Source of the DNA: Halomonas denitrificans
GTDB taxonomy: Bacteria > Pseudomonadota > Gammaproteobacteria > Pseudomonadales > Halomonadaceae
Assembly (NCBI RefSeq): GCF_003056305.1
Contig: NZ_PYVX01000003.1
Coordinates: 124,001 to 188,000 of the forward strand
Reading direction: 5' to 3'
Length of the DNA: 64,000 nt
This document shows positions 1 to 7,751 of the stretch, piece after piece. How positions within the stretch are numbered: position 1 is the stretch's first letter; the number at the start of each line of letters is the position of its first letter. Below the pieces are notes generated by a model that did no database searches, had not been told where the DNA came from, and saw nothing but the letters and a program-made list of their open reading frames with translations. A program made the position numbers and the translations under genes.

Positions 1-1
1 G

Positions 2-382
2 ACACGGAACAACCTTGAGGGCGTAGAGGGCGCATTAACCAACATCCTCGAATCCATCGAGAACGGCTTAGACCCGAAGCAATACCCAGCCATCGGCGAG
101 CGTCTATCCGATCTTCAGAACCATCGTGACGAGCTCACAGAAACACTTTCCGAGCTTTGTCAGCGTCAGACAACTTTTAGTGGGGCCATGGCGACCCGTC
201 GCGCAGTTAGCCTCGGGAAAGCCATCAGGGATCATCCCGACGACAAGACGCTGGTCAACTCGCACATGCGGGAGTGCTTTTCCAAGGTGGTCGTGGACTT
301 CCTATCAGGAGACCTCGTGTTCAACTGGAAGCATGGCGGCGAGACTCGCTTGCTGTACAAAGTGCCCGCCTTCGAGAGCTAG
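2..382 (+). CDS. Large serine recombinase, C-terminal fragment (cut by window edge)
   Basis: An open frame runs from the first bases of the window to a stop at 380-382, giving 126 visible residues with no start codon. The segment begins with a charged, leucine-rich stretch of coiled-coil type (around residues 4-55) and ends with a short strand-rich tail reading VFNWKHGGETRLLY. Both are typical of the C-terminal domain of large serine integrases, which follows the catalytic, recombinase and zinc-ribbon domains. Those upstream domains should lie left of base 1. An internal ATG at 188 also opens this frame, but the homology-like region extends upstream of it, so 188 is not the true start. By position it is the probable integrase of the island in comM. 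Family assignment rests on recognition of the C-terminus only. Confidence 0.6.
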   Translation, partial: TRNNLEGVEGALTNILESIENGLDPKQYPAIGERLSDLQNHRDELTETLSELCQRQTTFSGAMATRRAVSLGKAIRDHPDDKTLVNSHMRECFSKVVVDFLSGDLVFNWKHGGETRLLYKVPAFES

Positions 383-639
383 CCGAGCCCCAATTCATAG
401 AATCTGAAGAATTGCCCAACCTCGCTGTGTGCGCTTCTCTCAGCCTCGGCAACCCTCATCAGCTAAGGTTTCCAGTTGATAACTTTGATCTCCTGAGAGA
501 CGCACACAGCCGCGCCTCGCCTGTCTTCATGCCCATCCTTTGGCCTGATCTGTGGTGATGCGCAAAAATAAGCCCCACCGCACAGATGGAGCTTATAAAT
601 TCAGGACATTAGATAGTAAACATTAACAGGTTATGGCTA

Positions 640-1221
640 TTAAGCGCTGGCGCTCTTGTTCCAATGACGCTTTATAGTGGCAATGCCCAGGCCAGACTGT
701 GCTGCCGCCTGTGACTGGCTCAGGCCCTGCGTCTTGAGCTGTTGCACCTTCTCGGTGGTATCGGTGGCGACTGGGCGCCCGAGCTTCTTGCCCTGGCTCT
801 TGGCTCGCTCAAGTCCTTCCTGTGTCCGCTCCCTGATCCTATTCCGCTCGAACTCGGCGAAGGCGGCGAACATCTGAAGTAGCAGCTTCCCCTCGCTACT
901 CGTCAGGTCATGCGCTGGCAGGTCCAGTGAAACCACCTTTACGCCAGCATCCGAGAGATTGGTGATGGTCTGCTGTACGTCGATGTTGTCACGGCCCAGG
1001 CGGTCCAGCTTCAAGACAACCAGGGTATCCCCAGGCTCTAGCTTGTGCTCGACCATGCTTCGGAAGGCCGGACGCTCCATCACTTGCACTGAGCCGCTGA
1101 TGGTCTCGCTGATCACTCGATGCGGCTCAACGTTGTATCCGGCTGCCTTGATGGCAGCGACCTGATTGTCGGTGGTCTGTTCGACTGTGCTGACTCGGCA
1201 ATAGGCGAAGGTGCGTCCCAT
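640..1221 (-). CDS. Small serine recombinase (resolvase/invertase family)
   Basis: This 193-residue protein has the resolvase/invertase architecture: an N-terminal catalytic domain (residues 1-140) and a C-terminal helix-turn-helix of the Hin type (about 155-190). The catalytic serine is S11 in the YCRVSTVEQ motif. The LDRLGR motif (residues 72-77) supplies the conserved active-site arginines. The length is usual for a resolvase. Family members resolve cointegrates or invert DNA by a covalent phosphoserine step at short crossover sites. A perfect palindrome at 1257-1276 and arms of the TATCAA type lie just upstream and could be its own site or operator. It may belong to a decayed transposon or plasmid within the island. 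It is too small to be the island integrase, for which the protein at the left edge is a better candidate. Confidence 0.9.
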   Translation of the reverse strand: MGRTFAYCRVSTVEQTTDNQVAAIKAAGYNVEPHRVISETISGSVQVMERPAFRSMVEHKLEPGDTLVVLKLDRLGRDNIDVQQTITNLSDAGVKVVSLDLPAHDLTSSEGKLLLQMFAAFAEFERNRIRERTQEGLERAKSQGKKLGRPVATDTTEKVQQLKTQGLSQSQAAAQSGLGIATIKRHWNKSASA

Positions 1222-1256
1222 GCTGTCCCCCTGGCTGTCCGGGCATCTAGTATCAA

Positions 1257-1276
1257 GTAACGTGGTATCACGTTAC
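1257..1276. promoter_or_regulatory. Perfect palindrome overlapping the resolvase promoter (candidate res site or operator)
   Basis: The sequence is GTAACGTG, a 4-base centre, then CACGTTAC, a perfect 8-base inverted repeat. On the minus strand it overlaps the -10 region of the likely resolvase promoter. TATCAA at 1251 and TTGATA near 1309-1314 form a wider inverted pair around it. Small serine recombinases commonly repress their own promoter from a res site in this position; that role is inferred here. Confidence 0.5.
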
Positions 1277-1298
1277 GAAAGGGATCATTATTCGTCAA
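1270..1298 (-). promoter_or_regulatory. Likely sigma-70 promoter of the resolvase gene
   Basis: On the minus strand TTGACG (plus-strand 1293-1298) matches five of six -35 consensus bases. It is followed after 17 bases by TAACGT (1270-1275), a weak -10 match. The distance to the start codon at 1221 leaves a leader of about 40 bases. Confidence 0.4.
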
Positions 1299-1715
1299 CC
1301 CTATTTTGTTGATACCAGTTCAGCGGGACTATGGTTGGTGTCACGAAACGGACAATTGATGATCCCAGCATAAAAGACCGGAGTCATGGCAGTAGGGCAA
1401 CCGGAGCAATGCGAATCAAGCCAACATGCTGGGGCATGGCACTGGCCATAATGGGGATGGTCATCAGGCGAGTCGCGCGCAATGTCTTACTGAGGGTGCC
1501 GATGGTCAGACTACTGGCATGGAATCAGTATGGCTCGACCCTGGATCGCTGGGCAGATTCCAAGCACGACCCGGTGCTATAGGCGTAGCCTCGCTCCGCT
1601 CGGTCCCTGGCGCTCAGCCATGAGCGGGGTAGGTGCCTTCGTCATTCATCCTCCCGGTGGGTGCTTCGAAGATCGACTTCCAGCCGCCATCATTCGCCCG
1701 CTCGGGGCGGGCACC

Positions 1716-1734
1716 GGGGAAGCTCTTCCCCTTT
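1716..1734 (+). terminator. Possible intrinsic terminator or hairpin
   Basis: GGGGAAG, a 2-base centre and CTTCCCC form a perfect inverted repeat, followed by TTT. The T tract is short and no gene clearly ends here, so a terminator role is only suggested. Confidence 0.3.
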
Positions 1735-1801
1735 ATACAATCAAATACTGGCTCAGATGTGCGCCACAAAATAACCGGGGGTGGCCGGAAGATCGTCGGT
1801 T

Positions 1802-1908
1802 GGAGTCCCGTTCCTTTGCCTCAGGGATGGACACACGGAGTTGAAGACGTGCCGGTAGTAGTTCCACCGGAGTCCCGTTCCTCCAGCTCAGCGATGGACA
1901 CACGGAGT
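1802..1908 (+). repeat. Pair of 40-base direct repeats
   Basis: Copy 1 spans 1802-1841 and copy 2 spans 1869-1908. Both begin GGAGTCCCGTTCCT and end GATGGACACACGGAGT. They differ at about five internal positions, and their starts are 67 bases apart. No coding frame explains the repeat. Confidence 0.8.
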
Positions 1909-2024
1909 CAGACGCGCACAGGTAGATCACATTCCAGCGTGTCTACCGTCCCCGCTACCGTGGCACGTCCTCAGTTTGAGGATGTACAACCACGCCATGT
2001 GAGCAAATCGGCAGAGCCAACGCC

Positions 2025-2317
2025 TTGGTGGTTCTTCAGATTTCGCGAGAGACCACTACCGAGCCGACCATGAGCAGCCGCGAGATCGCGGAGGTGGTCA
2101 AGAAGCGTCACGACAGCGTGAAGCACACCATCGAGTCACTCACGGAGCAGTCACGTCTCCACAATCTGTGGAAACGTCGTTCCTCGATTCCCGTGGCCGG
2201 AAGCAGTGGGCCACCGAATACCGAGTCAACCAGCGCGACAGCTATGTGAACATCGCCCAGCTTTCCTCAGTGTTCACCGCTCGACTGGTGGACCGTTGGT
2301 CTGGTCGGTGGGTGTGA
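2025..2317 (+). pseudogene. Rha-family phage regulatory protein, frameshifted
   Basis: The first frame encodes the N-terminal signature of the phage Rha/antirepressor family, TMSSREIAEVVKKRHDSV, followed by KHTIESL. At about 2145-2150 the similarity moves to another frame. That frame reads on with VETSFLDSRGRKQWATEYRV, then NQRDSYVNIAQL and FTARLVDRW, to a stop at 2315-2317. Family members normally continue in one frame through the YRV..RDSYV..AQLSP.FTARLVDRW block. One net frameshift therefore separates two halves of one gene. Rha proteins are phage-encoded regulators, so the gene marks phage ancestry for this part of the island. The second frame also ends soon after DRW, so the C-terminus may be shortened. 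A programmed frameshift cannot be excluded, but no slippery heptamer was seen. Confidence 0.7.
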
Positions 2318-2700
2318 TCATGGTCGATGCTTCCTCATTGGCCCCTCCCCCTCGTTAAGTCTCCCCTCATCGGTCATCGAACACTCCCTCGAACCGGCCC
2401 AACGATAGGCCAGCCGATGAGGAACGCGAGGAAGAATCCCGATAAGAGGTTCGAGTGGATGGTCTAGTAGCTGGTCAGCGGGAGAGGCTGACGGGGTGGT
2501 CTGAAGGTGTGGCCGTCGTTGATGGCGGACACGGGTATGGTCACTGACACAAACGCGGATGCTCTCTGTCGGCATCATCGGTGGTCCTTCGGTGAGTGGT
2601 GATCATCATCCAAGATCACCCATCCTCAAGAGCGTGAAGACTGAAAGCACCTGGGCAGGGGTGTTGTGTCAGGATCAAGGCATCGGGCTTACTGGCCCGT

Positions 2701-2724
2701 CTTGAAGTGGATCTTGAAGTGGAT
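2701..2724 (+). repeat. Perfect 12-base tandem duplication
   Basis: CTTGAAGTGGAT occurs twice in immediate succession at 2701-2712 and 2713-2724. Confidence 0.9.
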
Positions 2725-2810
2725 CGGTGGATACTGGGTTCGGTGGGGACATGGATTGACTACATCGCCCGAAGAAGCGCCCGGTGCTGGGCCGAGAGTG
2801 GATTTCTGGT

Positions 2811-2894
2811 TCTCCCTAATACTGCGTCGTTTAGAAGTCGCAAGGTCCATCTTCTGGAGCATCTTCGGTGTTCCCCAATACTGCATCGTTTAGA
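2811..2894 (+). repeat. Pair of imperfect 25-base direct repeats
   Basis: Copies at 2811-2835 and 2870-2894 share the core AATACTGC(G/A)TCGTTTAGA and match at 21 of 25 positions. The starts are 59 bases apart. They lie downstream of the minus-strand gene at 2920-3687. Function is unknown. Confidence 0.75.
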
Positions 2895-2919
2895 GCAGCT
2901 CTTCGGACTGTCGATTTCC

Positions 2920-3687
2920 TCAGGCAGCCCCCATGATCCAGGCGTCTAGCCTGTCCTGGCGAGTCACGTCTGCATCATCGGACGACCATCCTTGATCTGA
3001 CGCCTCCGCTGTCGTTGGTGTTGGCAGGGCCCGCTCCAAGAACGGTAGCGCAATCCCGCAAGCCTTCACATACTTCTGAGCTTGACGATGGCCCACATCG
3101 AGAAGTCCCTTGACGTTCCTCGTCGAGATGATCTCCAGCTCCTGAAGGATGACATACAGGCTGATCTTGTTGAGTGGCAGGTTGCGCTCTTTCTGGCTGT
3201 GGTGGTCCAGGTTCGCAATCCCCGTAATGACATCTGACGCAGGACATCCAATGTCGCCTATGGCTCGCTCTTTCATGGCATCCTGCAAAGTGTTCTCGAT
3301 ACGCTTTTCTCGATTGCTTCGCTTGGGGATGTCGCTGATGTTGCTCTTGTCGAGGCGTTCGCCCTCTTGAGAATCGACGTAACCGGCTCGAATCTTTGCA
3401 GACCGCCCCCTGCCAAGCCGCCACTTGAGGTTCGGCATCTCGTCAACCGGGTAAGTCTGGTCGATGGGGTCGACCATAGCCGGTGCTTCGCCCGACCCGA
3501 AAGCGGGGCCGAACGGCCACCGATCACGGGACAAGCTATCCACGTACCGAAGCTGTCTTTCGGTTTGCTCCTTTAGCGCCAGTCCTCGGGCATTCATTTC
3601 TTCCCGGCCTGAGCGACCATGCCTGACAACAGTCGTCACCTCGGAGCTGGTAATTGTGCTGATCGTTGGAGCAGATGCTTTATCCAT
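2920..3687 (-). CDS. Unrecognised protein with possible C-terminal helix-turn-helix
   Basis: This is a 255-residue protein of unknown function. The ATG at 3687 was chosen because AGGAAG lies 8 bases upstream on the minus strand; the frame is also open upstream to 3762, without such a site. The N-terminal third is polar and the middle is rich in Arg, Lys, Asp and Asn, as in a nucleic-acid-binding protein. Near the C-terminus the segment NVKGLLDVGHRQAQKYVKAC looks like a helix-turn-helix of the kind found in replication or partition proteins. No signal peptide or membrane segment is visible. It is divergent from the HTH-methyltransferase operon across about 690 bases of repeat-rich DNA. A plasmid- or phage-type replication or regulatory role is possible but unproven. 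Confidence 0.55.
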   Translation of the reverse strand: MDKASAPTISTITSSEVTTVVRHGRSGREEMNARGLALKEQTERQLRYVDSLSRDRWPFGPAFGSGEAPAMVDPIDQTYPVDEMPNLKWRLGRGRSAKIRAGYVDSQEGERLDKSNISDIPKRSNREKRIENTLQDAMKERAIGDIGCPASDVITGIANLDHHSQKERNLPLNKISLYVILQELEIISTRNVKGLLDVGHRQAQKYVKACGIALPFLERALPTPTTAEASDQGWSSDDADVTRQDRLDAWIMGAA

Positions 3688-3917
3688 GTTCGTGTCTTCC
3701 TCATGAGTGGAGCCACTCGACCAGCCGGGCCACACACCAGCCCATGGCCGCAGGACTTCCAACCGGGCACACGAAAAGCCCTGTCCTACGGTTGGCCGGT
3801 GAGTAGCTCCAGTGATGAGCGGTTGGATAGATGGTGTGTGTGGTGAAGGCGTCCTCGCTTGAACGCTGTGGTGAGCGGCAGTGCCGTCTGCCTGTAACTG
3901 AGAGGAGCAGCAGGTGG

Positions 3918-4097
3918 CGGCCTTCCCCAGTAGTGGGCCGTAACCGCGTTCTACTAGATCGGCGATGGCCTTCCCCGTAAGTGGGTGGCAATCACCCGCC
4001 CGGAGAGGGCCGGTTCCCCTAAGGTGGGCTCCATCCCCTCCGAAAGTGAGGGGTAATCACCAAAGGCGGCGCCTTCTCCCTAAGAGGGCCGTAATGG
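3918..4097. repeat. Array of about five imperfect hairpin repeats
   Basis: Units at about 3921-3945, 3969-3996, 4012-4038, 4036-4061 and 4072-4096 follow the pattern CCTTCCCC-(TAAG-like loop)-TGGG-CCGTAATCACC, with changes in each copy. The C-rich and G-rich arms can pair, so each unit can form a small stem-loop. On the minus strand each copy places a GGGGA or GGGA motif beside the stem. Spacing is irregular (roughly 24-48 bases), so this is not a CRISPR array. Function is unknown. Confidence 0.65.
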
Positions 4098-4235
4098 ATA
4101 CGGCGTTGCGTGGCGCTGTGAGAGGTTCTAGGGGGTAGGCAGCAGGAGCCTCAATTACGGCTCTGATCGTCGGTCACACCTCATTCCCTGGACCCATGGT
4201 GCTCGAATCAGGGCTGATGACCTTTTCCGCACACT

Positions 4236-4290
4236 CTATCCACACCCTTCCGAAGCCTCACTCACTGATACATGAAGAAGGTTATACACA
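4236..4290. other. DnaA-box-like 9-mers beside AT-rich DNA
   Basis: TTATACACA at 4282-4290 fits the relaxed DnaA-box consensus TTWTNCACA. CTATCCACA at 4236-4244 differs from TTATCCACA at one base. The next 60 bases are AT-rich. Two boxes are weak evidence for an origin, so this is recorded only as a candidate. Confidence 0.25.
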
Positions 4291-4345
4291 GAGATACCCA
4301 CACCCAGAAAACACACTAATAAATGTGCTAACCACATAAAAATAA

Positions 4346-4374
4346 TTGCTTCTTCAGAATAGCGTCGCTATGAT
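4346..4374 (+). promoter_or_regulatory. Promoter of the HTH-methyltransferase operon, predicted leaderless
   Basis: TTGCTT (4346-4351) and TATGAT (4369-4374) are separated by 17 bases. The -10 matches consensus at five of six bases. The ATG of the HTH gene begins at 4381, seven bases after the -10 box, so transcription should begin at or next to the start codon. No ribosome-binding site can fit in that gap. Confidence 0.6.
4359..4371. promoter_or_regulatory. Perfect 13-base palindrome over the -10 box (candidate operator)
   Basis: ATAGCG-T-CGCTAT is a perfect inverted repeat with a one-base centre. It overlaps the first bases of the -10 hexamer. It would suit repression by a dimeric HTH protein, most simply the one encoded immediately downstream. 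The role is inferred from position. Confidence 0.5.
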
Positions 4375-4380
4375 ACCCTC

Positions 4381-4695
4381 ATGACCTATCAAGAGTTCCA
4401 GCGGCAACTCGGCAAGGCTGGACTCACGGTGAAGGAGTTCAGTGAGCTGGTTGGTATGACGCCCAATGCGGTTACCAACTACGCCAGGAAGCCCTCAGTA
4501 CCCTCTCATCTCGCTGTCATAGCGAAGCTCATGGGGGAAATGGCGGAGCATCAGGTCGACTTTCGTCGAGCACTGGCTGACCTGGACATCAAACCCAAGC
4601 GGCCCAGAGGCGCCAAGATTCAAAGTCGCCCTTCTCAGGCGCCGCATGGAGGACAGAAGAACGTGAGTAGCACCAAGGGTGAAAGGCATGAGTAG
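4381..4695 (+). CDS. Small HTH (XRE-like) protein of the restriction-modification block
   Basis: This 104-residue protein has an N-terminal helix-turn-helix at about residues 14-36 (LTVKEFSELVGMTPNAVTNY) of the lambda-repressor/XRE type. A basic, Pro- and Lys-rich C-terminal tail follows. It lies directly after a promoter whose -10 box is seven bases from the ATG and is overlapped by a perfect palindrome. The gene end overlaps the methyltransferase start, so the two are translationally coupled. In many type II restriction-modification systems a small HTH controller regulates itself and the methylase or nuclease. That role is likely here but inferred. It is longer than typical C proteins (about 80 residues), so it may instead be a generic island regulator. 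Confidence 0.8.
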   Translation: MTYQEFQRQLGKAGLTVKEFSELVGMTPNAVTNYARKPSVPSHLAVIAKLMGEMAEHQVDFRRALADLDIKPKRPRGAKIQSRPSQAPHGGQKNVSSTKGERHE

Positions 4696-5860
4696 CATCG
4701 AACTTTTCGCGGGCGCTGGCGGGCTGGCCATGGGGATGGCCCGAGCTGGCTTCCAACACTCTGCCGTCGTGGAGTGGGACGATGATGCTTGTCAGACCAT
4801 CCGTGAGAACCGGACGCACTATGACTCCCATGGGGAGGATTTTGTGCTGTTCGAGGGTGATGCCAGGAAGTTCGATCTGACTCCCTATGCTGGGGATGTG
4901 GAGGTAATCTCAGGCGGCCCTCCTTGCCAACCCTTCTCCTTGGGCGGGAAGCACAGAGGGAACCTAGACGAACGAGACATGTTCCCCACCGCCGTTCAGG
5001 CCGTGAACAAGACGATGCCCCGCGCATTCATCTTCGAGAACGTGAAGGGCCTATTACGTCAGAGTTTCGCCAGCTACTTCGAATACACATACCTCCAGCT
5101 CAGCTATCCCGAGGTCGTAAAGCGCAAGAGCGAGACTTGGGAGAGCCACCTTGCCCGCCTGGAGGGTATCCACAGCTCGGGGAAACGGAAGCCCACCTAC
5201 AACGTTCTTTTCCGTCTCTTGAATGCTGCTGACTATGGCGTTCCTCAGAAGCGTGAACGTGTATTCCTTGTTGGCTTCCGTTCAGACCTCGGCATCGAGT
5301 GGTCATTCCCTGAGCCAACTCACTCAGGTGACGAGTTACTACGATCCAAGTGGGTTACTGGAGAGTATTGGGAACGGCATCGCATTGCCAAGAAGCACAG
5401 GCCCGCACCGCCAGAGAAGATGAAGAAGCGCATAAGCCGTCTTGCTAGCGATGACCTACAAGGTCTACGCCAAGAGCCGTGGATGACAGTTAGGGATGCC
5501 ATCAGCGATCTTCCTGATCCTGAGGAGCCGTCGCTGCTCACTCTCCCCAATCACGTCTTCACGCCTGGAGCACGGGTCTACAAGGGGCACACAGGGAGCC
5601 CCTACGACGAACCTTCGAAGACCCTCAAAGCCGGGGCTCATGGAGTGCCTGGAGGCGAGAACATGCTAGTACGCGACGATGGCTCAGTCCGCTACTTCAC
5701 AGTTCGAGAGGCTGCAAGGCTCCAAACCTTCCCCGATGACTACATCTTCCATGGGGCTTGGGGCGAGACGATGAGGCAGCTCGGCAACGCTGTGCCCGTT
5801 AGGCTCGCCGAGGTTGTCGCGCGGTCAGTCTCTGAGGCACTAAATGGGCTGTCGATGTAG
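4688..5860 (+). CDS. DNA (cytosine-5) methyltransferase of a type II system
   Basis: This 390-residue enzyme carries the ordered motifs of the C5-methyltransferase family. Motif I is FAGAGGL at residues 7-13. Motif IV is GGPPCQPFS with catalytic Cys80. Motif VI is ENVKG, motif VIII PQKRERVFLVG, motif IX REAARLQTFPDDY and motif X RQLGNAVPV near the C-terminus. The target-recognition region lies between VIII and IX. It transfers methyl from S-adenosylmethionine to cytosine C5 and should protect DNA from the nuclease encoded next to it. I chose ATG 4688 because AAGGGTG lies at good spacing; an in-frame GTG at 4679 would add three residues. The gene overlaps the HTH gene and converges on the nuclease gene with a 21-base overlap. 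Its target sequence cannot be read from the protein. Confidence 0.93.
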   Translation: MSSIELFAGAGGLAMGMARAGFQHSAVVEWDDDACQTIRENRTHYDSHGEDFVLFEGDARKFDLTPYAGDVEVISGGPPCQPFSLGGKHRGNLDERDMFPTAVQAVNKTMPRAFIFENVKGLLRQSFASYFEYTYLQLSYPEVVKRKSETWESHLARLEGIHSSGKRKPTYNVLFRLLNAADYGVPQKRERVFLVGFRSDLGIEWSFPEPTHSGDELLRSKWVTGEYWERHRIAKKHRPAPPEKMKKRISRLASDDLQGLRQEPWMTVRDAISDLPDPEEPSLLTLPNHVFTPGARVYKGHTGSPYDEPSKTLKAGAHGVPGGENMLVRDDGSVRYFTVREAARLQTFPDDYIFHGAWGETMRQLGNAVPVRLAEVVARSVSEALNGLSM

Positions 5861-6622
5861 AACGGTACCGTGTTTATAGGCATGATCTTCTGGGTAGAGG
5901 ATCAAGTGGCTTGGAAAGGCGGTGGCTTGCCAGCCAGGGAGAGCTTTAGTAATAAGGACAAGAAGCTCTTTAGAGGTCATCCCTTTCTTCGGCACAGTTA
6001 CTGTCTTTCCTCGATAATCTGAATGCCCCCTTTTATAGTGTCCTTCATGGTAGTATCGAAGGAGATAAGGCAGCTTTGATGAGTCTTTCAGCGCCACTAA
6101 AAGCTCTGTAACGTCCCATTCTCCATCTTCAATCCAATCGCACTGCCAATCCAGGCGTATCGGATAACGCATATCAAAACCCTCTGGATCTACATCAGTA
6201 AGGTCTCGATTCCTCCCAGGATCATTATTCCCAAAGCCTATTCCGTTCCACTCGCTCTGAAGACGACTTTTATAGTGGTCAATCAATGATTTTTCTGGAG
6301 CAAGAGCCGCCCAGTTTTCGTGAATTGAGAGGCACTTAAACCCCATTTCATCTACAGTTATATTGTTTCTTCCCGATATCTTGTGGTGATGCATTCTCAG
6401 CCTTCTTGGGAGATTGTCGGCCTTCCCTACATAAACAGAAGCACCATTCAGGAAGAGCTGATACACACCACGAAGCTCAGGAAGATCATCAATAGCACCT
6501 CTACTAAGTTGTCCTATTTCAAGTGAGTCCAGGGCCCCGGAAAGCTGGGAAGCCAGTGCTGAAACAATATCAATTTCGAAATGACTGTAGTGGGGAATAG
6601 TTTGCATCCCATCATGTTTCAT
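5840..6622 (-). CDS. GIY-YIG type II restriction endonuclease, Eco29kI-like
   Basis: This 260-residue protein has the GIY-YIG nuclease core. GVY (52-54) and YVG (64-66) are ten residues apart, K67 follows, R73-R76 and H78-H80 form the helix with the catalytic Arg and His, E110 is the metal-binding Glu, and N126 lies in NGIGFGNNDPGRN. This order of Tyr, Tyr, Arg, His, Glu and Asn is that of the Eco29kI/HpyI-type nucleases. A C-terminal extension after residue 140 is longer than in Eco29kI. The start codon overlaps the stop of vsr in an ATGA arrangement, so the two are co-translated. The DNA is clearly AT-rich beside the chromosome, as expected for acquired DNA. Eco29kI cuts CCGCGG; whether this enzyme does is unknown. 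Confidence 0.88.
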   Translation of the reverse strand: MKHDGMQTIPHYSHFEIDIVSALASQLSGALDSLEIGQLSRGAIDDLPELRGVYQLFLNGASVYVGKADNLPRRLRMHHHKISGRNNITVDEMGFKCLSIHENWAALAPEKSLIDHYKSRLQSEWNGIGFGNNDPGRNRDLTDVDPEGFDMRYPIRLDWQCDWIEDGEWDVTELLVALKDSSKLPYLLRYYHEGHYKRGHSDYRGKTVTVPKKGMTSKELLVLITKALPGWQATAFPSHLILYPEDHAYKHGTVLHRQPI

Positions 6623-7047
6623 TCTGATGTATCCCTACTTTTTTGAAGAAACTCATTGATTTTTTCTAATATAACATCAATTTCGGATAGCTCACACTCC
6701 CACACTACAAGCACCTCCCATCCCATTTCTCTAAGCCTGTCCTCGTTCCGCCTATCCCTTTGCTTGTTAGCTTCTAGCTTGGGTATCCAGAATTCCTCTC
6801 GGCTCTTGGGGAGCCTGGCCAAGGCACAGCCCTCGTGACGATGCCAGAAGCAGCCATGTACGAAAATCACCTTCTTCCTTCCCTTGAATACTAAATCAGG
6901 CTTCCCCGGTAGCCGCTTGTCGTGCAACCGGTAACGATAGCCAGCGCCATGGACAAGACGCCTTACAACCATCTCTGGCTTGGTATCCTTGTGGCGTACC
7001 TTCCCCATGATCCTGCTTCGAGTCTCTCTATCGACCGAATCGGCCAT
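6619..7047 (-). CDS. vsr: Very short patch repair endonuclease (Vsr)
   Basis: This 142-residue protein matches the Vsr family along its length. Numbered from the ATG at 7047, it has the metal ligand D51 in GKPDLVF, H64, the intercalating pair F67-W68 and H69 in the HGCFWHRH block. These are the same numbers I recall for E. coli Vsr. Vsr nicks beside T:G mismatches produced when 5-methylcytosine deaminates, so it repairs the mutational by-product of the neighbouring methyltransferase. A TTG at 7050 is an alternative start with slightly better spacing from AAGGGG. The gene is the first of a two-gene unit with the restriction nuclease and begins only about 60 bases from the island boundary. AT-rich codon use contrasts with the chromosome. 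Confidence 0.95.
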   Translation of the reverse strand: MADSVDRETRSRIMGKVRHKDTKPEMVVRRLVHGAGYRYRLHDKRLPGKPDLVFKGRKKVIFVHGCFWHRHEGCALARLPKSREEFWIPKLEANKQRDRRNEDRLREMGWEVLVVWECELSEIDVILEKINEFLQKSRDTSE

Positions 7048-7064
7048 CAATGGTTAACCCCTTG

Positions 7065-7094
7065 ATTCTAGAGCGCTTTATTCATTGGTCTCGA
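7065..7094 (-). promoter_or_regulatory. Possible promoter of vsr and the restriction gene
   Basis: On the minus strand TCGAGA (plus 7089-7094) and TAGAAT (7065-7070) are separated by 18 bases. The -10 matches five of six consensus bases and the -35 four of six. It lies within the last 45 bases of the island, so the pair would carry its own promoter. Confidence 0.4.
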
Positions 7095-7751
7095 AAGACA
7101 TGATATGAAGAGGTTGTGGCCGCCGGCCGCCGCCACCTCCAGGGCGCGCCTCGCCTGGTGCTGGCCTCGCACGTCGGCGAGATCGGGGGCCGGCGTCGAA
7201 GCCGGAGCGGGGCCGGGCGCGCGATGCGGCTGCAGCGGCGTCTGGCCGAGCAGGTGGGCCACCACCTCGAGCAGGTGGTCGGCGGGCAGCACCTCGAGAT
7301 CGCCGGCCAGGGCCGCCTCGTCGGCGTTGGCCCGGGGCACGATCAGCCGGCGGCGCGCCCGGCGCGTGGCCATGGCCATCGGCAGCACGCCGCCGAGCGG
7401 TCGCAGCCGGCCGTCCAGGGCCAGCTCGCCGGCGCACTCGACCCCCTCGAGGGCCTCGGGGGGCACCTGGCCCGAGGCCACCAGCAGCCCCAGGGCGATG
7501 GGCAGGTCGAAGCGGCCGCCCTCCTTGGGCAGGTCGGCGGGGGCGAGATTGAGGGTGATGCGCCGCAGGGGGAAGTCGAAGCCGGCGTTGACCAGGGCGC
7601 TGCGCACCCGCTCGCGGCTCTCCTTCACCGCGGCCTCCGGCAGCCCCACCAGGGTGATGCCGGGCAGCCCGTTGGCCAGATGCACCTCGACCAGCACCTC
7701 GGGGGCCTCGAGGCCGAGGCCGGCCCGGGTGTGGATGATTGCCAGCGTCAT
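7068..7751 (-). pseudogene. comM: comM (yifB) N-terminal fragment, truncated by the island
   Basis: The frame encodes about 214 residues of ComM, the hexameric Mg-chelatase-like AAA+ helicase that extends branch migration during natural transformation. The N-terminal Lon-protease-like domain is intact, with VEVHLANGLPGITLVGLPE and INLAPADLPKEGGRFDLPIA-type segments (here TLNLAPADLPKEGGRFDLPI). Similarity stops after AAAGGHNL. In the intact family LLLIGPPGTGKT, the Walker A motif, would follow. Here the frame reads 13 unrelated residues and stops at 7068. The whole ATPase and C-terminal part, about 290 residues, is missing from this side and should lie left of the window. The product cannot hydrolyse ATP, so DNA uptake recombination is probably impaired. 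Confidence 0.92.
7105..7112. other. Island-chromosome junction inside comM (right attachment site)
   Basis: The comM-like sequence ends at the codons for His-Asn-Leu (7110-7118) and the first unrelated codons follow at about 7107. The recombination core therefore lies within a few bases of here. The exact core cannot be set without the left junction or an uninterrupted comM from a close relative. Confidence 0.6.

Follow-up and report, generated by a model that had tools for sequence, protein, structure and literature searches.

An island with restriction-modification genes in comM of Halomonas denitrificans, apparently inserted by a large serine integrase

The analysed window, a stretch of 64,000 nucleotides (G000:C7:124001-188000), opens with most of a small island followed by the N-terminal half of comM, and the question raised by this locus is which recombinase placed the island in the gene. 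The earlier note had claimed that comM is cut just before its Walker A motif and that the window begins inside the C-terminus of a large serine recombinase (LSR), and had proposed that the rest of both genes lies to the left of base 1. The leftward extension (L003, C7:115001-133000) bore this out. The letters at window 2-382 (+) are the C-terminal end of an LSR of 517 aa (L003:7829-9382; gene start C7:122829) with the serine-catalytic Resolvase (2.4e-15), Recombinase (5.7e-17) and zinc-ribbon (Zn_ribbon_recom, 9.6e-10) domains, which, at ~500 aa, is the composition of a large serine integrase. Ser18, which we take from its motif to be the catalytic residue, is invariant across 25 aligned LSRs, and the LSR would be active in recombination. 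Its matches in a phage collection (225 records) were all below 60% identity, with a best value of 35.3% among the 15 matches listed.

The island is 8,348 bp long and splits comM in the HNLL codons preceding the Walker A motif. The N-terminal half, an ORF at window 7068-7751 (-), has a profile match to ChlI (2.9e-44) and matches Mg_chelatase at positions 1-27 only; it stops at HNLF.., whereas intact relatives read HNLL(F/L)(A/S)GPP. The missing ATPase half was found left of the window (C7:121901-122770), in the ORF L003:6901-7785 (-), and matches Mg_chelatase positions 23-206 (5.7e-88). Only 59 bp separate the LSR start from the first shared codon of this half, and an 8-bp repeat, AGGTTGTG, is present at L003:7763 and L003:16111 (window 7111). 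The features of the window are listed in Table 1.

Table 1. Island features and the adjoining comM half in the window.
Feature	Position	Strand	Evidence
LSR C-terminal end, gene begins left of window	1..382	+	Domain matches to full 517-aa LSR
Small resolvase/invertase-type serine recombinase, 193 aa, convergent with LSR	640..1221	-	PF00239 9.1e-38; phrog_125 DNA invertase 5.7e-55
20-bp palindrome upstream of resolvase gene, possible res site	1257..1276	.	Function from position only
Conserved Halomonadaceae protein, no assigned function, 255 aa from internal Met at 3687 (ORF to 3762, 280 aa)	2920..3687	-	phrog_3360 2.3e-19
Small regulator-like protein, weak matches only	4381..4695	+	phrog_8898 1.5e-6; phrog_4779 2.1e-5
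C5-cytosine DNA methyltransferase	4679..5860	+	PF00145 2.1e-58; PADLOC MTase_II 3e-136
GIY-YIG nuclease, Eco29kI restriction-enzyme type	5840..6622	-	PF09517 5e-8; PF01541 3.5e-7; PADLOC REase_II 1.6e-5
Vsr mismatch endonuclease	6619..7050	-	PF03852 3.3e-30; TIGR00632 9.2e-47
Island/comM junction, N-half side	7108..7118	-	Inferred crossover dinucleotide 7108-7109; HN codons 7113-7118
comM codons 1-213 (N-terminal half)	7113..7751	-	ChlI match

The crossover point was located by comparing the two ends of 28 islands. At offsets +4 and +5 after codon 213 the ends agreed in 27/28 and 28/28 cases; the mean for the flanking columns was 7.7 of 28, with neighbouring columns reaching up to 25/28 and far single columns up to 24/28. 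The two best-agreeing adjacent bases probably represent the crossover dinucleotide expected of a serine integrase, and strand exchange would most likely take place there, within the second Leu codon, at a core of 2 bp (YT); the right edge given by the earlier note (7112) is at most 4 bp away. The ends of this island share CACAACCT, followed by one mismatch and then TT again, so that the exact 2 bp of the core rest on the family profile. The uninterrupted comM of locus L146 is identical to the C side of this island over CACAACCTGTTGTTCGCCGGGCCGCCC. The predicted core, which the note had suggested defining from uninterrupted relatives, was unbroken in 30/30 intact comM loci of the Halomonadaceae, loci that are intact by selection because they were chosen as the best-scoring 30 of 275 genomes. 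Both a short shared core that fits a 2-bp crossover and an intact attB in relatives are thus present. The attP site would adjoin the 5' end of the LSR gene, and attB would lie in the HNLL codons just before Walker A.

Depending on the island, the LSR gene is found on the N-half or the C-half side of the core. As an explanation of this difference, a flip of the core dinucleotide was considered and rejected, since by eye a GGGTCT-like arm lies on the C-half side both ways; the LSR gene, not the core, therefore seems to have moved. The idea that the ATPase half routinely receives its start codon from the island was also dropped, as L024, L025 and L027 carry in-frame stops at most 6 codons before the junction. 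This island does provide an in-frame ATG (L003:7783-7785). ATG is the C-side codon right before the core in 10/19 non-Halomonadaceae rows of the end profile.

Among public LSR loci, the 80 most similar (the best 80 of 254 relatives) include 50 in which the LSR adjoins the same comM codon (L063, assigned to another site, is outside the 50), which leaves chance as no serious rival. These loci were found in Pseudomonadota, in Geomonas and in a Gemmatimonadota bin, and an LSR beside one half of comM, always at one codon, is what marks the comM/yifB-targeting LSR group. A related LSR does not by itself imply the same target, because comM was absent from the available DNA around 23/80 relatives, some of them on short contigs, and 4/80 lie near comM codons 28-37 instead. 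The Dongia locus L049 first appeared to have an LSR beside an intact comM; its comM gene starts only at codon ~28, which makes one more insertion site near the comM N-terminus the better reading, although the first comM codons were not found by BLAST.

A comM-type domain was found in 275/275 searched genomes of the host family, and the gene was physically interrupted in 35 of them, at four codons, three by LSRs and one by a Tn7-like element. The codon used here was interrupted by an LSR in 9/275 genomes. A single control gene, dprA, showed no clean interruption in the same census.

Several explanations of this arrangement were weighed. The anatomy itself comprises an LSR, both comM halves, a shared core and an intact site in relatives, and it is very probable that LSR-mediated site-specific recombination between attP and attB brought the 8.3-kb integrative island into comM. 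That a Tn7-like transposon of the AbaR/Tn6022 type inserted and acquired the LSR later as cargo seems extremely improbable. Such elements do interrupt comM in A. baumannii, according to the accessible part of PMC11472951, and the earlier note named comM as a familiar site for transposon-type islands in Acinetobacter; in the host family TniA-, TniB- and TniQ-type proteins (G267) and TnsA (G227) were found at comM. However, the host-family Tn7-like insertions lie at Mg_chelatase positions ~93-96, about 70 residues beyond the LSR site at ~22-27, and the LSR-junction pair, with its 59-bp spacing here, recurs in distant bacteria. The scans covered the larger island proteins, namely 8 window ORFs, the full LSR and then sets of 7 and 5. 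As the earlier note had expected in naming a serine integrase and no Tn7-like element, Tn7-type proteins (TniA/TnsB, TniB, TniQ, TnsA) were absent among the 8 window ORFs and the sets of 7 and 5, and the Phage_integrase domain of tyrosine integrases was absent among the 8 window ORFs, the full LSR and the 7 island proteins.

Conditional excision by the LSR, with comM restored as in regulated gene integrity, would make the locus a reversible switch. The LSR gene is open and the comM halves are in register with the native site; excision of phage A118 from Listeria comK restores that gene, and yifB (= comM) is reportedly among the regulated-gene-integrity candidates of the TIGER study. We nevertheless consider a switch unlikely. 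The genome shows one integrated state, a directionality factor was not recognised and the excised state was not seen, and in same-site relatives the ATPase half is broken by a stop in G199 and by a second insertion in G016 and G269, damage that a working switch would not long tolerate. It is possible, though somewhat doubtful, that the island gains nothing from the loss of comM and that the gene is no more than a landing site with a conserved DNA sequence where insertion is tolerated. The codons that hold the core are highly conserved, which by itself would let an LSR cross species. Against this, three LSR lineages and a Tn7-like element have between them used four codons in a single family, while dprA, the one control, showed no clean interruption. 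The pattern favours the view that losing comM either benefits the island or is unusually well tolerated, two possibilities that are inseparable here.

The small resolvase is present in 16/29 islands. Its pairing with the LSR was compared post hoc, at 25/46 versus 2/14 (p = 0.013) in the first grouping and 24/45 versus 2/12 (p = 0.047) with L063, L077 and L099 set apart as a site of their own. It would reduce multimers of a circular island form. Script-detected palindromes lay upstream of the resolvase gene in 3/11 loci examined (L003, L027, L054), which makes the res-site reading weak. In a wider reading the codon-213 islands are a two-recombinase module, the LSR inserting and the paired resolvase controlling the circular form, and comM is a convergent battleground in whose ATPase domain recombinases that are distantly related or unrelated, comprising three or more LSR lineages and a Tn7-like transposon within one family, each use a codon of their own; the island would thereby switch comM integrity and the recombination of incoming DNA. 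This reading is quite unlikely, and its rating was lowered slightly because the pairing test was conceived after the pattern had been seen.

Among the remaining genes, the GIY-YIG nuclease is presumed to be the partner of the C5 methylase, and the restriction-modification genes would maintain the island. The conserved Halomonadaceae protein has 11 homologues of 174-259 aa, the best with 91% identity across most of the query; neither it nor the small regulator-like protein had a match in Pfam scans. No phage structural, relaxase or mating genes were recognised among the larger island proteins scanned, namely the 8 window ORFs and the sets of 7 and 5. An Rfam search of the island gave nothing at E <= 0.1, and its three tandem-repeat arrays are short and weak.

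LSR targeting of magnesium chelatase/yifB is already published (Durrant et al. 2022, PMC10083194), and this island is a further example. In the accessible text of that study, LSRs belonging to several diverse clusters insert into magnesium chelatase/ATP-dependent protease genes, 12.4% of predicted site-specific integrases target this gene family, and the targets show an enrichment of DNA competence genes; unlike here, that text gives no codon and core, no several sites in one family and no small resolvase. The part of PMC9203015 consulted describes the Wolbachia phage WO sr1WO element as likewise flanked by magnesium chelatase gene portions, yet it is a phage, whereas our island is 8.3 kb long and phage structural proteins were not recognised among those scanned. 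AbaR-type islands resemble it in target gene, defence or resistance cargo and proposed conflict with transformation but carry a transposase set instead of an LSR, as far as the sections of PMC11472951 at hand go. The Aggregatibacter and other comM-inserted elements of PMC4774983 share the conserved comM insertion and the evolutionary argument (an intragenomic conflict model); the available text leaves the recombinase type of CF65_00446 unstated. The Dehalococcoides islands pair a ~540-aa serine recombinase, DsiB, with a ~200-aa DsiA, like our LSR and resolvase, but their target is ssrA and not comM; the excerpted text of PMC3146451 places DsiA in a putative operon with DsiB, with no DNA-binding motif detected, whereas our resolvase gene is convergent with that of the LSR and is preceded by a palindrome. 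Less expected were the several comM codons used within one family, the small resolvase and the LSR on either side of the core.

In summary, LSR-mediated insertion would cost the host full-length ComM. The host genome encodes ComEC and DprA; it would recombine less heterologous DNA, and replacement of the island by transformation would become rarer. It is plausible, as the earlier note argued, that the insertion disables uptake recombination and thereby protects the island, an argument already made for comM-inserted elements in the accessible text of PMC4774983 and PMC11472951. The analysis deduces the attB and attP sites and the core of a comM-using LSR and makes visible how broadly one comM codon is used as a landing site. 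Since some species of the host family have an intact comM and others an interrupted one, the published proposal of mobile elements acting against transformation by way of comM can be tested there.

The window spans C7:124001-188000 of genome G000. Leftward extension of this locus (L003, C7:115001-133000) revealed a complete large serine recombinase (LSR) of 517 aa with all three domains, and a divergent 294-aa ORF encoding the ATPase half of comM (Mg_chelatase positions 23-206), confirming the content that the earlier note had predicted to the left of the window. The island is 8,348 bp long, and AGGTTGTG is common to both of its ends. The Pfam scan of eight window ORFs matched five and left three, including an LSR fragment, without a match (Table). 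In the genome (3.76 Mb, 99.98% complete), Mg_chelatase was matched three times, by both comM halves and weakly (1.2e-4) on another contig, and the Recombinase domain once, by the island LSR.

Table. Features of the island and interruption sites in comM of the family genomes
Feature	Position	Description
LSR fragment	window 2-382	no Pfam match
Small serine resolvase gene with upstream palindrome	window 640-1276	range covers gene and palindrome
Protein of unknown function	window 2920-3687	Halomonadaceae homologues, best 91% identity
Repeat stretch	window 3920-4094	24-bp unit x3, copies 75-79% alike; no recognised gene; ahead of restriction genes
comM N-half		window ORF; ChlI; Mg_chelatase positions 1-27 only (Pfam)
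Vsr		window ORF (Pfam)
GIY-YIG/Eco29kI-type nuclease		window ORF (Pfam)
C5-methylase		window ORF (Pfam)
Small Resolvase-domain protein (product of the resolvase gene above)		window ORF (Pfam)
In-frame ATG for comM ATPase half	L003:7783-7785	provided by island end; not a conserved feature among close relatives
Site A	codon 213	9 genomes: G000 (this genome), G097, G164, G194, G199, G019, G020, G016, G269
Site B	Mg_chelatase ~93-96	20 genomes, including G016, G269, G125 and draft G264 (one half only)
Site C	Mg_chelatase ~128-134	7 genomes
Site D	Mg_chelatase ~147-164	2 genomes: G217, G125
Tn7-like element at site B	G267:C1:690001-706000 (L148)	~70 residues past the codon-213 site

The uninterrupted comM of relatives was compared, as the earlier note had proposed. 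The site reads G(G/S/A)HNLL(F/L)(A/S)GPP without interruption in 30/30 loci, which are the best-scoring 30 of 275 genomes and hence intact by selection, and a same-genus genome (L146) is identical to the C side of the window's own locus across CACAACCTGTTGTTCGCCGGGCCGCCC. The probable crossover was located with 28 islands with both ends present (23 public, the window's own and L104-L107), whose ends were aligned by codon 213. The two ends agree in 27/28 islands at offset +4 and in 28/28 at +5, offsets that fall on bases one and two of the second Leu codon and read CT or TT. Agreement is 25/28 at offset +2 and 20-23 at offsets -4 to -1, with a mean of 7.7 in flanking columns (single columns up to 24). 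The 19 non-Halomonadaceae rows alone score 18 and 19 at +4 and +5. Such an agreement is the trace expected of a 2-bp exchange by a serine integrase.

A protein search gave 1,513 LSR homologues among 7,999 scored candidates, with 17 entries, query included, at 60% identity or more. A scan of public genome contigs gave 254 relatives. To the best 80 of these an automatic rule was applied, which required that a comM half stop at codon 213 or begin at the next codons, at most 2.5 kb from the LSR 5' end and with comM not contiguous. Such a junction was found in 51 of these 80 (50 after removal of L063); the nearest half was the C-half in 32 and the N-half in 19, and both halves lay within the fetched DNA in 23. 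Three further loci (L037, L066, L102) have a comM half at codon 213 beyond these limits. In L063 (~36), L077 and L099, and probably in L049, the LSR belongs to this group but lies near codons 28-37 of comM; in L063, comM is additionally cut at codon 213. At the remaining 23 of the best 80, comM was absent from the examined DNA, some stretches of which were short. The 50 codon-213 loci come from Pseudomonadota (Halomonadaceae, Sphingomonadales, Rhizobiales, Burkholderiales and others), from Geomonas and from a Gemmatimonadota bin. Of two nearly identical Bosea LSRs (L103, L096), one lies beside comM and the other has no comM in 10 kb upstream and may be a copy that is circular or sits elsewhere.

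A quick tree was computed for 88 LSRs, with two short sequences excluded, SH-aLRT as the only support measure and L063 counted as N side. N-half-side and C-half-side arrangements were intermixed in it, and well-supported branches require at least nine switches between them. By eye, the core direction appears constant while the LSR gene side varies between islands.

A search of 275 family genomes for Mg_chelatase gave 41 that scored worse than 1e-91, and these were searched again. comM was in separated parts or had its domain cut in 35/275, at four sites (Table), with double interruptions in G016 and G269, where an LSR island at A accompanies the cut at B, and in G125 at B and D. By coordinates, five of six other low scorers (G089, G095, G222, G230, G266) represent frameshifts, stops or contig edges, and no Mg_chelatase match was obtained in G096 at 1e-7. 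As a control, the DprA domain was matched at 1.2e-65 or better in 272/275 genomes; the remaining cases, weak matches in G089 and G266 and absence in G139, concern genomes that are 74-85% complete.

Among the site-B genomes sampled for gene content, Pfam matched TniA-, TniB- and TniQ-type proteins in the element of G267, and TnsA in that of G227; nine more sampled elements showed the same or a similar pattern of ORF sizes. At sites C and D, an LSR lies beside the junction in 9/9 genomes, three of which were domain-scanned, and these LSRs are 26-33% identical to that of the window's island; a distant one (36-38%) occupies site A in G194. Two further LSR types were observed at other ATPase-domain codons (L109-L113, L165 and L166 at site C; L163 and L164 at site D). 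LSR matches at 1e-40 occurred in 15 family genomes, 14 within comM and one (G183) elsewhere with a whole comM.

The 29 islands with both ends present range from 3.66 to 10.3 kb, with one L037 edge hand-set and the upper size limited by the fetched flanks. Their 133 cargo ORFs matched 41 Pfam families; the 25 families with counts include C5-methylase, Eco29kI type, Vsr, Mrr and HNH (2 each), DndB and TIR (1 each), and Resolvase (16/133). Because most cargo ORFs belong to no listed family, a defence theme is only suggested.

Separately from this Pfam count, phmmer with the small protein of the window's island as query detected a 140-300-aa serine recombinase in 16/29 islands; the ORF list lacks the L034 and L036 resolvase genes, where a longer overlapping frame was chosen, but does contain a weaker match in L038. 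When the count was restricted to loci with 8 kb of downstream sequence available, a small recombinase lay within 8 kb in 25/46 codon-213 loci versus 2/14 others (p = 0.013), or 24/45 versus 2/12 (p = 0.047) with L063, L077 and L099 regrouped to their own site. The Resolvase domain was matched four times in this genome, twice inside the island. The small protein presumably acts as a resolvase, and PMC3146451 describes a comparable recombinase pair in Dehalococcoides ssrA islands.

The TIGER paper reportedly lists yifB. In published work, the magnesium chelatase/ATP-dependent protease gene is an LSR target accounting for 12.4% of predicted site-specific integrases (PMC10083194), sr1WO of phage WO targets the magnesium chelatase gene (PMC9203015), comM insertion is discussed with a proposed advantage for mobile elements (PMC4774983, PMC11472951), and Xanthomonas comM carries a Gabija/Septu island (PMC11736806). 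A literature search covering listings and text passages found no report of codon 213 and its core as an LSR site, of four comM sites in one family, or of LSR-resolvase pairing in comM islands. In summary, an LSR-made insertion in comM is the most likely entry route, and the earlier note was right on this point and on what the locus contains; the island is a well-defined further example of the published LSR-in-comM class, with side observations worth follow-up.
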